Assembly: GCF_900105905.1 (NCBI RefSeq)
Contig: NZ_FNSV01000005.1
Span: 6,448,001-6,512,000, forward strand
Length of the DNA stretch: 64,000 nucleotides
Reading direction: 5' to 3'
Origin: Rhodococcus koreensis
GTDB lineage: Bacteria; Actinomycetota; Actinomycetes; Mycobacteriales; Mycobacteriaceae
This document shows, in pieces, positions 18,798-23,300 of the stretch; within the stretch, counting starts at the first letter, position 1; each line of letters starts with the position of its first letter. The notes beneath the pieces are model-generated. The model was not told the DNA's origin. It did no database searches and saw nothing but the letters and a program-made list of their open reading frames with translations. A program made the translations under genes and the position numbers.

Positions 18798-19913
18798 TCA
18801 GACGAAGGCGAACTCGTCGCCGGCGTGGAACTTGGCGAGCGATTCGGAGACCGACCGCCGCGACGGCGGATGGAAGGCGAACGCGTGCACGGCGGCGGTG
18901 AGGTAACCGATGTCGGAGGACTTGATGAACGCGATCCCGCCGAGCGATTCGACGGCCGCCGAGGACGCGCGGACCAGCGCGTCGCGAATCGCGATGCGCG
19001 AGAAGAGGAGACGCACCGAGATGTCCTGCCCGCGTTCGCCCTCGTCCACCGCGCGGGCGATGTTCTCGACGGCGCCCATGGCGTTCTCGATATCGGCGGC
19101 GGCGCGCACATAACCCTCGTAGTCGTCCTTGCCTGCGGCCAGCAGTCGTTCGAGCAGCGCGCTCGCCGCACCCAGGTAGTTGGCGGTGACGAGCATCCCG
19201 AACCACAGATATCCGGTCATCTCGTGTTGCCCGTCCGGGTCGTCGGCACCGTTGAGGAGGACGAGGTCGGCCGGTATCTCGACGTCCTCGAGGTGTACCT
19301 CGTCGCTTTCGGCACCGGCAAGAATCCAGCTCTCCCAGAACGGCCGCACCGTGATCCCCGGTGTGTTGGCCGGGATCAGCGCGATCGCCCTCGCACCGGT
19401 GTCGACCTCGACGCTCGCGGTGAGCAGGTCCATCGACCCCGACAGGCTGCACGGCTTCTTGCTGCCGTTGACGATGTAGCTCGAGCCCTTCTTCCTGGCG
19501 GTCATGGTGGGAATGAACACACTGCCCCCGGTGACGCCCTCGGAGAAGCCGGAGGCGACGACGGCGCGTTGTTCGACGAGGCTCTTGATCAACGCGCGGT
19601 CGTCGTCCGTGGCCTCCTGCGCGAACTCGTTGAGCGTGGCGAGCGACAGATGATGCATCGTGGTGGCGGCGCCGAGCGAGGGCGACCTGCTGCCGATGGC
19701 CCGCTGGACGCGCACGGAATCCAGCGCGGAGGCGCCCAGCCCACCGGATTCCTTCGGGATGGTCAGAGCGGTGCCGCCTGCGTCCCGGAAGCGCCCGATT
19801 GCGCCGCTGCCTCTACCTTCCAGCGTGAGCAGTGGCGTCTCGTCCAGATAGGCGGCGAGATCGGGCAGGTAGGACTGCAGCGCTGCGTGTTCGCGGGCCA
19901 TCAATGCGGTCAT
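18798..19913 (-). CDS. Acyl-CoA dehydrogenase-like flavoprotein
   Basis: 371 residues with the acyl-CoA dehydrogenase fold: GTALTIPKESGGLGASALD near 48, SGFSEGVTGGSVFIPTMTAR near 120 (substrate/FAD region), YIVNGSKKPCSLSGSMDLL near 145, and a C-terminal helical domain ending in SSDIGYLTAAVHAFAFHPPS. The canonical catalytic Glu motif of beta-oxidation enzymes is not evident and the C-terminus is short, so it may be a diverged dehydrogenase or hydroxylase-type member. Divergent from the serine-palmitoyltransferase-like gene at 20082, sharing a mirror-image promoter region (19971-20036), which suggests co-regulation and a common pathway. Confidence 0.85.
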   Translation of the reverse strand: MTALMAREHAALQSYLPDLAAYLDETPLLTLEGRGSGAIGRFRDAGGTALTIPKESGGLGASALDSVRVQRAIGSRSPSLGAATTMHHLSLATLNEFAQEATDDDRALIKSLVEQRAVVASGFSEGVTGGSVFIPTMTARKKGSSYIVNGSKKPCSLSGSMDLLTASVEVDTGARAIALIPANTPGITVRPFWESWILAGAESDEVHLEDVEIPADLVLLNGADDPDGQHEMTGYLWFGMLVTANYLGAASALLERLLAAGKDDYEGYVRAAADIENAMGAVENIARAVDEGERGQDISVRLLFSRIAIRDALVRASSAAVESLGGIAFIKSSDIGYLTAAVHAFAFHPPSRRSVSESLAKFHAGDEFAFV

Positions 19914-19970
19914 GACACTCCTCGAATGTGTTCGCGGAAATTCTGGATTTCCAGGGATATCCATAGGCAC

Positions 19971-20036
19971 ATTCGGAGCGAGGTGTGGTGGCGGTTTGGT
20001 CGGCGCCACCAAACCGCATCGGCCACCGCTCCGAAT
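19971..20036. promoter_or_regulatory. Nested inverted repeats and divergent CCGAAT promoter-like elements
   Basis: Outer arms ATTCGGAGCG (19971-19980) and CGCTCCGAAT (20027-20036) are exact reverse complements; inner arms GCGGTTTGGT (19991-20000) and ACCAAACCGC (20008-20017) form a second perfect repeat with loop CGGCGCC. Each strand thus reads AAACCG, 14-15 nt, then GCTCCGAAT. The -10-like part equals that of the SigK promoters P1/P2, but the -35 is AAACC instead of CCATCC. Confidence 0.6.
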
Positions 20037-20081
20037 CAACGGAGTAATCCCGATCATGCACACCGCGAGGAGTTGGTATCG

Positions 20082-21314
20082 ATGCCTGTGAACAGATTGA
20101 TCCAGAGGCTGGGTGGCGACGACCGGGTGGATCTACTCCGCGCAGTTCGTGAGTCCGACGTGAGTCCCTACTTCCGGGTGATGGAGTCCGCCACCGCACC
20201 CGTCGTCCAGGTGGAGGGCGCCGACCGGATCATGCTCGGTTCCAACAACTATCTCGGTCTCGCCGATCACCCCGCCATTCGTCAGGGAGCGCAGGACGCC
20301 CTCGACACGTTCGGCGGCGCGATCACCGGAAGCCGGCTCCTGAACGGCACCATGGACCTGCATCTCGACCTCGAGTCGGAGATCGCCGAATGGCACGGCA
20401 CCGAGGACGCGATGGTCTTCACCACCGGCTATCAGACGAATCTGGGCACCATCAGTGCCGTCGTAGGGAAGGGCGACGTCGTCGCCGTCGACTCCGCTGC
20501 GCACGCGTCGATCCGGGACGGTTGTGCTCTGTCCGGTGCCACGATCCGCAAGTTCCGTCACAACGACGTCGCCGACCTGGAGAGCATCCTCGCGGACACG
20601 GCAGACGGGGACGGCGCGGTGCTGGTGATCGTCGACGGGTTGTATTCGATGGAGGGCGATCTCGCGCCACTCGGCGCCGTCTCCGCACTCTGTGACCGGT
20701 ACGGTGCGGCCCTGATGGTGGACGAGGCGCACAGTCTCGGCATCTTCGGTGAGAAGAGGACCGGCGCCGCCGAACTCCTCGGTATCGACGGCGACACCGA
20801 CATCCGGATGGCGTCGCTGTCCAAGAGTCCCAGCTCCACAGGAGGATTCATCGCTGGGTCCCACGATCTCCTCGACTCGCTGCGGGTGAATGCCCGTGCT
20901 TTCCTGTTCACGACGTCCGGTGTTCCCGCCGCGGTGGGAGCGTCCCTCGCCGCGGTGCGACTGATCCGCAGCGAGGAGGGGGAACAACGCGCACGACGCG
21001 CACTGGACAACGCCGCCGTCCTGCGGTCCGGTCTGGCGGACAACGGACTCGACGTGGGTGCGCTGTCGCCGCTGCCCGGCGGCGGTGAGACGGTGACGCC
21101 CATCGTGTCCGTCCACGTCGGCGACGACCTCGAGGCGATGAACCTCTGGCGGACCCTGTTCGACAAGGGTGTGTTCACCAGCGCGGCACTCTATCCCGCC
21201 GTTCCGCGGTCGGGTGCGATGCTCCGGCTGTGCGTCATGGCCACCCACACCGACGCCCAGTTGCGGCGGGCGGTGGACGTGATCTCCGAGACCGTCACGG
21301 AAGCCGCGGCCTGA
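20082..21314 (+). CDS. Alpha-oxoamine synthase, serine palmitoyltransferase-like
   Basis: 410-residue PLP enzyme of the alpha-oxoamine synthase family (BioF, KBL, HemA, SPT), which joins an amino acid and an acyl-CoA with loss of CO2. Features: SPYFRVMES near 27, GSNNYLGLADHP near 52, ITGSRLLNGTMDLH near 82, TGYQTNLGTISAVVG, AAHASIRDG (His stacking on PLP), VDEAHSLG near 212, Lys of the Schiff base in SLSKSPSSTGG near 250, and VMATHT near 388. The SRLLNGT, HASI and MATHT segments resemble bacterial serine palmitoyltransferase more than BioF as I recall these proteins. Start ATG follows a GAGGAG site. Overlaps the next gene by one base (TGATG). Confidence 0.88.
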   Translation: MPVNRLIQRLGGDDRVDLLRAVRESDVSPYFRVMESATAPVVQVEGADRIMLGSNNYLGLADHPAIRQGAQDALDTFGGAITGSRLLNGTMDLHLDLESEIAEWHGTEDAMVFTTGYQTNLGTISAVVGKGDVVAVDSAAHASIRDGCALSGATIRKFRHNDVADLESILADTADGDGAVLVIVDGLYSMEGDLAPLGAVSALCDRYGAALMVDEAHSLGIFGEKRTGAAELLGIDGDTDIRMASLSKSPSSTGGFIAGSHDLLDSLRVNARAFLFTTSGVPAAVGASLAAVRLIRSEEGEQRARRALDNAAVLRSGLADNGLDVGALSPLPGGGETVTPIVSVHVGDDLEAMNLWRTLFDKGVFTSAALYPAVPRSGAMLRLCVMATHTDAQLRRAVDVISETVTEAAA

Positions 21315-22837
21315 TGAAGGTGGCGGTCACCGGGGCGACGAGCGATTTCGGCGCCGCGATCCTGCCCGTGCTGCTGGACGATCCGGATATCGACACCGTG
21401 ATCGGTCTCGGCAGGCGGGAACTGCCGATCGAACATCCGAAACTCGAGTTCGTCCGGATGGACATCCGCGACCCGGGCATCGAGGAGGTGTTCCGCGGCT
21501 GCGAGGCCGTGGTCCACCTGGCGTTCGTGGTGGAGGAGATCCGGGACAAGGCGGCGACCCACGACATCAACCTGAGGGGTTCGCGCAACGTCATCGATTC
21601 CGCCTACCGGGCCGGCGTGCTGCGCGTCGTGATCGCGTCGAGCATCAACGCGTACGGTCCGGAGTTGCGCCCGAAGCCGGTGAACGAGGACGTCTATCCC
21701 GCAGGCGATCCCGACCGATACTATTTCCACGACAAGGCCGAGGTCGAGCATTACGCCGAGTGGTGGCTGCGCCGCCATCCGGGGGAGATGGCGATCTCGA
21801 TGCTGCGTCCCACCTACATCATCGGGCCGGACTTCTCCAACGACGGCATCGAACAGCTCACCGGCCCGGTCGGGGCCTTTCCGCGGGCCGACGACGCCGC
21901 GTACCAATTCCTGCACCAGCGGGACATGGCGGATGCGTTCCATCGCGCCGTGAAGCAGGATCTGGTGGGCCCGTTCAACCTCGGACCGCGGGACTGGGTG
22001 GGTGTCCGCGAGCTCGCGGCGATGCAGGGGCAGCGGATGTTCGACGTGCCCGAGCGGCCGGCGGTCGTGGCGGCGAACGTCGCGTTTCGACTCGGACTCA
22101 CCGCGTTCTCCGGCCAGTGGGTAACCGCGGGGGAGACCGTCGTCGATTCGACGCGCCTCACCGAGGCGACCGGCTGGGCGCCGACGCTGACTGCCCGGGA
22201 GTCGGCGGCCGTCATGATCCTGCTGCAGGGGAAACCCCTGTTGCGCAGAGAGGATGCCCTGGAACGCCGCATCGCCTGCGAGGCCGCGCTGGAGCCGGCG
22301 TCCGAATTCGTCGGAGTCGACGGCCGCGGGCTCGAACACGTCCAGATTCCCGCGGCCACCGGAGCCGTGCACGCCGAGGTCCACGCGGCCCGGCGGGGTG
22401 GCGGGACCACTGTGGTGCTGCCCGCGCCGCCCGGGCTCCATGCGCGGTATCTCACTCCGCTCGCCGTGGAGTTGGCGGAGAACGGCGTGAACGTCGTCGT
22501 CGCGGATCTCCCCGGGCACGGGCCGAGCACCGGGAAGCGCGGTCTTGCGACGGCGGCCGGGGTGCACGACGCCCTGGCGGTCGCGCTCGGCTATGCGCGG
22601 ATCCGGTTCGGCGGCACGCCGCACGTGGTCAGGGTGGGCGACACGACCGCGCCCGTGTCGCGGCCCGGACGCCGGCGGTCGTGGGTCGCCCGCTCGCGGA
22701 CCCGCGTCGTCGTCAACCCGGCCGACGGACTGCTCCCGCGCAGACTGCGCTACGAGGGCGGGCTTGAGCACCTCCCGCACGCGTATTCGGCCCGCGGCGT
22801 CACCTCGGTCATCCACACCGATCGAGTCGACTCGTAG
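21314..22837 (+). CDS. Extended SDR epimerase with C-terminal partial alpha/beta-hydrolase-like region
   Basis: 507 residues. Residues 1-300 are an extended SDR: VAVTGATSDFGAAILPVLLD (cofactor loop with TGATSDFG), VVHLAFV, SSINAYGP, the active Tyr in YYFHDKAEVE, and ISMLRPTYIIGP. From about residue 350 the protein continues into VVLPAPPGLHARYLTPLAVE and VVADLPGHGPST, which looks like the first strands of an alpha/beta hydrolase (oxyanion strand and the D-L-P-G-H-G turn), but the sequence ends without a G-x-S-x-G elbow or catalytic His. Start overlaps the oxoamine synthase stop by one base. A reductase working on the 3-keto product of the upstream enzyme is a natural inference. Confidence 0.8.
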   Translation: MKVAVTGATSDFGAAILPVLLDDPDIDTVIGLGRRELPIEHPKLEFVRMDIRDPGIEEVFRGCEAVVHLAFVVEEIRDKAATHDINLRGSRNVIDSAYRAGVLRVVIASSINAYGPELRPKPVNEDVYPAGDPDRYYFHDKAEVEHYAEWWLRRHPGEMAISMLRPTYIIGPDFSNDGIEQLTGPVGAFPRADDAAYQFLHQRDMADAFHRAVKQDLVGPFNLGPRDWVGVRELAAMQGQRMFDVPERPAVVAANVAFRLGLTAFSGQWVTAGETVVDSTRLTEATGWAPTLTARESAAVMILLQGKPLLRREDALERRIACEAALEPASEFVGVDGRGLEHVQIPAATGAVHAEVHAARRGGGTTVVLPAPPGLHARYLTPLAVELAENGVNVVVADLPGHGPSTGKRGLATAAGVHDALAVALGYARIRFGGTPHVVRVGDTTAPVSRPGRRRSWVARSRTRVVVNPADGLLPRRLRYEGGLEHLPHAYSARGVTSVIHTDRVDS

Positions 22838-22880
22838 AGTGTCTCCTGACCACGTCGACGCCGTGAGCAGGAGTGAACCC

Positions 22881-23300
22881 ATGACCAGTGAAGAACCCGG
22901 CAAGCGGAGCCCGGCCGTCGAGGCGGGTCTGACGGTGCGGCGTGAGGTGATGGGTCCCGACTTCGTCGAGCGGGCGCTCACCCGGACCGCGGGGACCGAC
23001 AGCGAGCAATTGCAGGAATTCGTCACCGAGCACGTGTGGGACGCCGTGTGGAATCGGCCCGGGCTGGACCGACGCAGCCGCAGTCTCCTCAACCTCGGCA
23101 TGCTCATCGCGCTACGGGCGCACGGTGAGCTGAAGGGCCACGTGCGGGGTGCACTGCGCAACGGTCTGACCCGCACCGAGATCGTCGAAGCGGTGATCCA
23201 CGCGAGCGCCTACTGCGGGGCCCCCGCCGGTCTGTCGGCGATGGCCGTGGTGCAGGAGGCGCTCGACGCGGAACTGGGACCGCTCGAATCCCAGGACTGA
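22881..23300 (+). CDS. Carboxymuconolactone decarboxylase family protein
   Basis: 139-residue CMD/AhpD-like protein. The segment NRPGLDRRSRSLLNLGMLIA near 58, then HGELKGHVRGALRNGLTRTE and EIVEAVIHASAYCGAPAG near 100-117, match 4-carboxymuconolactone decarboxylase (PcaC-type) rather than the CxxC peroxidase type; a single Cys is seen. ATG at 22881 with GGAG 8 nt upstream. It follows the epimerase by 43 nt in the same direction and may belong to that transcript. No other beta-ketoadipate genes adjoin it, so the PcaC function is only a family assignment. Confidence 0.85.
   Translation: MTSEEPGKRSPAVEAGLTVRREVMGPDFVERALTRTAGTDSEQLQEFVTEHVWDAVWNRPGLDRRSRSLLNLGMLIALRAHGELKGHVRGALRNGLTRTEIVEAVIHASAYCGAPAGLSAMAVVQEALDAELGPLESQD

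Follow-up and report, generated by a model that had tools for sequence, protein, structure and literature searches.

A putative three-gene cassette for N-oxygenated sphingoid-type lipids in Rhodococcus koreensis

The locus and its genes

Positions 18798-23300 of the window, by which we mean the whole 64-kb stretch analysed from contig NZ_FNSV01000005.1 of the 10.3-Mb Rhodococcus koreensis genome, hold four genes (Table 1). Three of these appear to form a cassette: an alpha-oxoamine synthase (AOS) resembling serine palmitoyltransferase (SPT), an extended short-chain dehydrogenase/reductase (SDR), and a divergent flavoprotein of the acyl-CoA dehydrogenase (ACAD) fold that resembles the amine N-hydroxylase VlmH. 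Judging from sequence, we propose with a probability of about 0.52 for the model as a whole that this cassette makes an N-oxygenated sphingoid-type lipid. All four gene positions given in the original prediction were confirmed, as were the SRLLNGT, HASI and MATHT segments of AOS and the one-base overlap of AOS with SDR, in which the stop codon of the former (TGA, 21312-21314) and the start codon of the latter (ATG, 21314-21316) have a single base in common. For the flavoprotein gene, a start at ATG 19913 is likelier than the longer open reading frame from GTG, which reaches 20063.

Table 1. Features of the gene set and its divergent intergenic region (window coordinates).
Feature	Position	Strand	Remarks
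VlmH-type flavin-dependent amine N-hydroxylase candidate	18798..19913	-	ACAD fold, 371 aa
Divergent intergenic region, 168 bp	19914..20081		Inverted repeats ATTCGGAGCG/CGCTCCGAAT and GCGGTTTGGT/ACCAAACCGC; possible operators
SPT-like alpha-oxoamine synthase (AOS), dependent on pyridoxal phosphate (PLP)	20082..21314	+	410 aa
Extended SDR with C-terminal extension, putative 3-keto reductase	21314..22837	+	Pfam Epimerase
Carboxymuconolactone decarboxylase (CMD)-family protein	22881..23300	+	PF02627; probably outside the cassette

The oxoamine synthase, its reductase partner and their co-inheritance

In a tree of 79 rows, AOS falls within a 66-row clade (support 99/95) together with all four SPT rows, two of which (L158, L159) are labelled as SPT by their 56-58% identity to the solved SPT 8guh, and apart from BioF, KBL and ALAS. 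Within this tree, 42 rows that are all or nearly all actinobacterial make one clade holding AOS (100/97). The original prediction had turned on whether the enzyme would be placed among BioF or KBL proteins, and it falls outside both clades. Approximately unbiased (AU) tests reject its grouping with BioF (p 0.0023), KBL (0.0025) and ALAS (0.0002), and with it the corresponding roles in biotin, threonine and 5-aminolevulinate (ALA) metabolism (p <= 0.0025), and also disfavour a grouping with the Bacteroidota SPTs (0.0135). Of the two further AOS-type genes in the source genome, L003 pairs with BioF 3wy7 (100/100) and is the genome's own BioF, and L002 has its partner, a Streptomyces protein, in a different branch of the tree.

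The alignment shows that AOS keeps the PLP lysine, the GSRLLNGT segment and the family's conserved His, Asp and Arg, and that the Arg of the BioF motif RPPTVP is replaced by Leu (ALYPAVP). Among solved chains its best relatives are the SPTs 8guh (275 bits) and 2jgt (261 bits), with a KBL at 210 bits and BioF 3wy7 at 197 bits. The three NCBIfam SPT models score it at 360, 352 and 292 bits, against cut-offs of 640, 500 and 670, respectively; BioF reaches 330, TIGR01825 320, two KBL models 309 and 258, ALAS 214 and CqsA 194 bits. Because AOS lies under all of the SPT equivalog cut-offs, we label it SPT-like and not SPT. We are highly confident that it is an acyl-thioester:amino-acid condensing enzyme that is neither BioF nor KBL.

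The SDR domain occupies residues 1 to about 310 and contains the Ser-Tyr-Lys set. Its C-terminal extension (window 22274-22834) weakly resembles half of an alpha/beta hydrolase: PF12146 matches at 20.2 bits, short of its 27-bit cut-off, and segments of the type HARYLTPLA...GHGxSTG recall the first half of that fold, with the sole GxSxG-like string of the protein falling within GHGxSTG and no separate nucleophile elbow. One clade of rhodococcal relatives retains the extension, which the Dietzia-type members lack. In a structural model of the SDR (pLDDT 84), residues 1-307 account for most of the similarity to UDP-sugar epimerases, a result uninformative as to substrate. Sixteen AOS-linked SDRs form one clade (100/100) that stands apart from twelve paralogues. 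It is likewise separate from the SDRs next to AOS in L088/L097, L160, L163 and L174; those of L160, L163 and L174 sit on long branches, and their own placement is unsure. Because the SDR is coupled to AOS, its likely reaction is reduction of the ketone that AOS would release.

Co-occurrence was scored across 151 genomes of the family, with limits of E up to 1e-90 for AOS, E up to 1e-40 for the flavoprotein, and 196 bits for the SDR, a threshold set after a gap in the scores had been seen (next match 119 bits). AOS is present in 27 of these genomes, spread over 12 of 31 genera. The SDR is found at 196 bits or more in 26 genomes, all among the 27 with AOS (G031 is without it), and the VlmH-like flavoprotein in 29, namely 26 of the 27 AOS genomes plus G075, G095 and G135. 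Hypergeometric p-values of 2e-28 for AOS with SDR and 8e-25 for AOS with flavoprotein are too small, given the relatedness of the genomes and an SDR limit chosen after the gap was seen; the linkage of the three genes is nonetheless far above chance. The original prediction had called such a gene set unexpected in Rhodococcus, which agrees with the presence of AOS in only 3 of 10 genomes of the same genus but sits less well with the reach of AOS across the family.

We read 28 AOS loci, the window and 27 fetched stretches, and 26 of them keep both SDR and flavoprotein across four gene orders: eight are colinear (AOS-SDR-flavoprotein), nine resemble the window (AOS-SDR with a divergent flavoprotein), seven have the SDR turned toward AOS, and two have it about 10 kb off. 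An MMPL gene is present in 11 of the 27 fetched stretches, confirmed by Pfam in L137, L138, L142, L145, L149 and L155, and MFS genes adjoin the SDR in all three turned-SDR loci that were scanned (L143, L144, L150). The two loci that lack both SDR and flavoprotein, L140 (7037-10843) and L142 (7566-12446), instead carry AOS with an AMP-binding ligase and one or two genes for acyl-carrier-protein (ACP)-like proteins, which score under the ACP cut-offs; L142 also has an FMO-like gene. By its gene content this pair would represent a second AOS route within the same family, and its ligase and ACP-like proteins point to a fatty acyl thioester.

The CMD gene lies after the SDR, as originally described, and on the same strand, but it is probably not a member of the set: it accompanies the cassette in only 2 of the 28 loci, the window and a 97%-identical relative (L148), and is rejected on that ground. 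Its product scores 115 bits against the PcaC model, whose cut-off is 155.7. In the intergenic region, the ATTCGGAGCG...CGCTCCGAAT inverted repeat spans 19971-20036 and encloses the second one; both are possible operators, on sequence grounds. We scanned ten divergent regions for palindromes (the window and nine relatives, with the L148 region left out), comparing them by eye and without a shuffled control. Palindromes appear only in the window and L029 and differ from each other, and no close palindrome of the size of the window repeat was seen in eight of the nine relatives. Pieces of TTCGGAGCG or CTCCGAAT reappear by eye in L026, L028, L029 and L033; the window palindromes do not.

Other AOS neighbourhoods are built differently. 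In most of L039-L086, from Solirubrobacterales and kin, the genes around an AOS of about 49-57% identity are conserved, and no match to the window-type SDR or flavoprotein was found there; L082, the sole locus of this type scanned with Pfam, has a divergent GNAT-type gene together with MMPL, NMT1/THI5-like and ABC genes. The AOS of L060 (7202-8371), recorded as a Mycobacterium sp. metagenome-assembled genome, is nested among those of Solirubrobacterales, and the contig is perhaps mis-binned. On plasmids of Streptomyces sp. NBC_01001 (L163, 5962-9244) and Rubrobacter radiotolerans (L160, 5872-11464), AOS stands in the rows AOS-GNAT-epimerase and AOS-hypothetical-oxidoreductase-LTA synthase, respectively, which look like ceramide-type gene sets.

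The divergent flavoprotein and its relatives

Pfam finds only the ACAD N and middle domains in the flavoprotein, and an AlphaFold model (pLDDT 83) has TdsC, KijD3, DszC and DnmZ as its top structural matches, a fold search that we use only alongside the evidence of residues. The protein has His348 (FHPPS) where DszC-like proteins have His, and all 13 members of the alignment, the window protein included, have HPP with this histidine; in none of the 13 is there a catalytic Glu at either site, the YEGT position or that of the IVD-type helix. Rows from the same genome were called DszC-like from NF043015 scores, all of them under that model's cut-off of 850, or ACAD-type by the YEGT/FEGT motif alone. 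Three of the five ACAD-type rows have YEGT/FEGT at the catalytic position and the other two have Gly or neither residue; the DszC-like rows have His. By row, that position is Glu in L198, L194 and L195; His in L187/L188 (one open reading frame), L189, L190, L192 and L199; Gly in L197; and neither Glu nor His in L200, with L193 misaligned. The original description of this gene as acyl-CoA-dehydrogenase-like thus stands for the fold but not for a dehydrogenase role, which is not supported, given the missing Glu and the VlmH-type motifs.

VlmH itself is described as a flavin-dependent isobutylamine N-hydroxylase of 378 aa with VlmR as its partner, and for AlnG, described as ACAD-like, a role in N-hydroxylation has been proposed; the ACAD domain is, as described, common to group D monooxygenases (PMC6165268), to which we infer that VlmH belongs. 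The window flavoprotein is 40-45% identical to genes at the VlmH position of valanimycin/azodyrecin-type clusters and has KKPCSL-type and FHPP motifs in common with them. In a 31-row tree, 28 family rows, VlmH-position genes included, part from three ACAD-type rows at 100/100, and branching within the 28 is mostly open. The first motif varies as KKPCSM (L136, L144, L184), KKPCTL (L225), KRPCSL (L185, L216) and KQPCSL (L186), and the second as LHPP in L216 and HPG in L185; Dietzia-type flavoproteins have KAPCSL or KMPCSL with YHPP. These likenesses suggest that the flavoprotein is probably a flavin-dependent amine N-hydroxylase.

Relatives outside AOS loci bear on this assignment. Only 17 plasmid records match the flavoprotein, and we read the loci in seven. 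Five Streptomyces plasmid loci are azoxy-type clusters: all five encode a DUF2156 (VlmA-type) protein, a small protein of the VlmO type and one resembling VlmB, with the VlmA and VlmO labels assigned from the gene list as given in PMC9379638. A flavin reductase, an APC permease and a SerRS are each present in four of the five. One of them, L223, also has ilv genes, a pyridoxal-dependent decarboxylase, MmgE/PrpD and a diacylglycerol-kinase-family gene, as expected of a valanimycin-type cluster. The other two loci, on Nostoc plasmids, encode either a class III aminotransferase or a PLP decarboxylase. Orphan relatives stand with class III aminotransferases (L183, L184, L216), with VlmA/VlmO homologues (L184, L216) or with nonribosomal peptide synthetase (NRPS) genes (L185, L186). 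Altogether, a class III aminotransferase or PLP decarboxylase is close by in 9 of the 12 non-AOS loci read, the exceptions being L185, L221 and L222. A profile of the flavoprotein family matched in 3 of 296 genomes of an Actinomycetota sample, too few for wider statistics.

In L220 (1475-15722), on a plasmid of Nostoc sp. C052, the VlmH-like gene accompanies a class III aminotransferase, a fatty acid desaturase, SDRs, a nitric oxide synthase oxygenase and a DevAC-type exporter, a combination that may represent an unexplored cyanobacterial lipid-amine cluster.

A proposed pathway and its alternatives

Gene content, protein families, clades, active-site residues and co-inheritance are the observations on which the pathway is built. 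In a decarboxylative condensation, AOS would join Ser, Ala or Gly to a long acyl thioester and give a 2-amino-3-ketone, which the coupled SDR would reduce to the 2-amino alcohol. The VlmH-type flavin monooxygenase would then convert the primary amine to a hydroxylamine, and might oxidise it further to an oxime or nitroso group, using reduced flavin supplied by a reductase encoded elsewhere. The product would be exported, in many relatives through the adjoining MMPL or MFS protein. All of the substrates, the order of the SDR and N-hydroxylation steps, the product and its export are what we infer.

Several points weigh against this pathway. AOS scores below every NCBIfam cut-off, those of the SPT equivalogs included; its match to 8s1y, a chain named both BioF and KBL, is at 252 bits near the SPT value; and the union of its clade with the 2jg2-type SPT and the Roseomonas and Pseudomonas enzymes has support of only 86/83. 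Extended SDRs include epimerases and dehydratases, and reduction by the SDR is therefore a guess. In the structural search of the flavoprotein, ACADs tie within 1 Z of the top matches, with no separation of monooxygenases from ACADs. The comparison was made with genes at the VlmH position and not with VlmH, the 31-row tree holds no DszC-like row and so does not separate VlmH-type from DszC-type proteins, and the active sites are not identical, azoxy-cluster members having WFE and cassette members WFG or LFG. No match to a VlmR-type flavin reductase was found in the window or the other loci with all three genes; the reductase gene may lie elsewhere in the genome. For each genome, co-occurrence scoring was confined to the 10-13 best first-look candidates, MMPL adjacency was counted without a density control, and a Pfam scan of 13 window proteins gave no MMPL. 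Both the WFE/WFG difference and the limited sampling of the 31-row tree have lowered our confidence in the whole model.

A more conventional explanation, which we consider unlikely, is that the product of AOS and SDR is an ordinary sphingoid base or a ceramide precursor, with the flavoprotein acting as a C-hydroxylase (for example for 4-hydroxylation, as in phytosphingosine) or a desaturase. The SPT clade of AOS is what this would predict, and the structural matches of the flavoprotein mix C-, S- and N-oxygenases with dehydrogenases, its relatives in L185, L186 and L225 adjoin NRPS genes, and the WFE/WFG difference would be in keeping with another reaction. However, the relatives found in a context of known chemistry stand where VlmH does in azoxy-type clusters, most of the non-AOS loci read have an amine-forming PLP enzyme nearby, and no GNAT-type N-acyltransferase is among the four genes. 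The original prediction had seen here the first two steps of sphingoid-base synthesis; this may hold as chemistry, but the set does not look like a ceramide operon, the SDR standing apart from those of L160, L163 and L174, themselves of unsure placement, and no N-acyltransferase being among the four genes.

The chemistry of AOS would be identical if the product were a small diffusible signal or pyrazine-type compound derived from an N-hydroxylated short- or medium-chain 2-amino ketone, of the CqsA type, and a mono-acid acyl group fits the absence of the BioF RPPTVP Arg. We regard this as improbable: the CqsA model gives AOS only 194 bits, and the MMPL neighbours, together with the ligase and ACP-like proteins of two sister loci, fit long acyl chains. 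Least probable by far is a BioF or KBL enzyme with unrelated neighbours, as the BioF (330 bits) and KBL (309 and 258 bits) scores might suggest; both groupings are rejected by the AU tests, the genome has its own BioF in L003, and AOS is co-inherited with the SDR and the VlmH-like gene. An SPT-like synthase with a coupled SDR, as originally predicted, is supported by the SPT-containing clade and the overlap, and with AOS outside BioF and KBL an undescribed lipid pathway is plausible.

Bacterial Spt (PDB 8guh/3a2b, 2jg2) has the clade, the PLP site and the GSRxLNGT and MATHT-type segments in common with the window AOS, which differs in its shortfall against the NCBIfam cut-offs (360/640 and 352/500 bits) and, relative to 2jg2, in having Leu for the Arg of RPPATP, as do the Roseomonas and Pseudomonas rows. 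In Caulobacter, spt-bcerS-cerR are described as likewise combining an oxoamine synthase with an SDR-type reductase (PMC11087976, PMC11324152); the window has no N-acyltransferase among its four genes and adds a flavin monooxygenase, and, in a comparison made with the SDRs of L160, L163 and L174 and without a true CerR sequence, its SDR stands apart. A search of the source genome with the GNAT of L163, as a bCerS-type query and without a positive control, gave no match. The SgaAB sphinganine cluster of Pseudomonas fluorescens MYb115, as described, is also a small biosynthetic set with an SPT-like AOS outside the classical sphingolipid producers, but has two genes, is fed by a polyketide synthase and comes without an N-hydroxylase (PMC12134224). 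BioF2 (Rv0032) is an oxoamine synthase from the same order, described as resembling bacterial SPTs most and as lacking BioF activity (PMC12910592). According to that paper it occurs only in the M. tuberculosis complex and carries an additional N-terminal domain, of which the window AOS, compared with it by description only, has no counterpart.

The window flavoprotein groups with genes at the position of VlmH/VlmR (valanimycin) and Ady3/Ady10 (azodyrecin) as described in PMC9379638, has their KKPCSL-type and FHPP motifs, and, as in those systems, is encoded next to an amine-making PLP enzyme. The amine would come from AOS, unlike the decarboxylase or transaminase of VlmH/VlmR systems, Gly and not Glu follows WF, and no VlmA, VlmB, VlmO or VlmR homologue is near the cassette. 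VlmA, B, O, R, K and L gave no match (E up to 1e-6) in the DNA read of the window and of 23 further loci among the 26 with all three genes. In the source genome, VlmA finds only paralogues of 24-27% identity, and VlmB, in a search without a positive control, finds no match. An azoxy product of the window cassette is not supported, given the absence of VlmA, VlmB and VlmO from the window and the paralogous VlmA matches in the genome. The published survey of azoxy clusters, as described, sought VlmA-VlmH pairs (PMC9379638) and would therefore miss a VlmH-like gene that, like the one in the window, has no VlmA with it.

The two systems meet in L136 (2729-17292), from the same genus, and L137 (5000-19998), where AOS sits inside an azoxy-like gene set together with the flavoprotein, SDR, MMPL, a class III aminotransferase and VlmA- and VlmO-like genes; L137 additionally has DAO, PPDK_N/PEP-utilizer and SBF proteins. 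Neither locus has a match to VlmB, VlmR, VlmK or VlmL, and the product therefore need not be an azoxide. From their gene content, these hybrid clusters possibly make an N-N bonded lipid.

In the literature searched, we found no publication on this gene set, on N-hydroxy-sphingoid lipids, or on sphingoid-type oxoamine condensation joined with VlmH-type amine N-hydroxylation. As a tentative extension, to which we give somewhat less than even odds, the cassette would define a new lipid class of N-hydroxylated sphingoid-type bases (hydroxylamine, oxime or nitroso) exported to the actinobacterial envelope, with clusters of the L136/L137 type carrying the same N-hydroxy intermediate, by way of VlmA- and VlmO-like proteins, toward an N-N bonded (hydrazine- or azoxy-type) lipid. 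If the proposed pathway is true, it would be directly testable by lipidomics and 15N labelling. It would join decarboxylative oxoamine condensation of the sphingoid type with VlmH-type amine N-hydroxylation, give a function to a gene otherwise read as an acyl-CoA dehydrogenase, and predict N-O lipids in Rhodococcus, Rhodococcoides, Antrihabitans and Dietzia.

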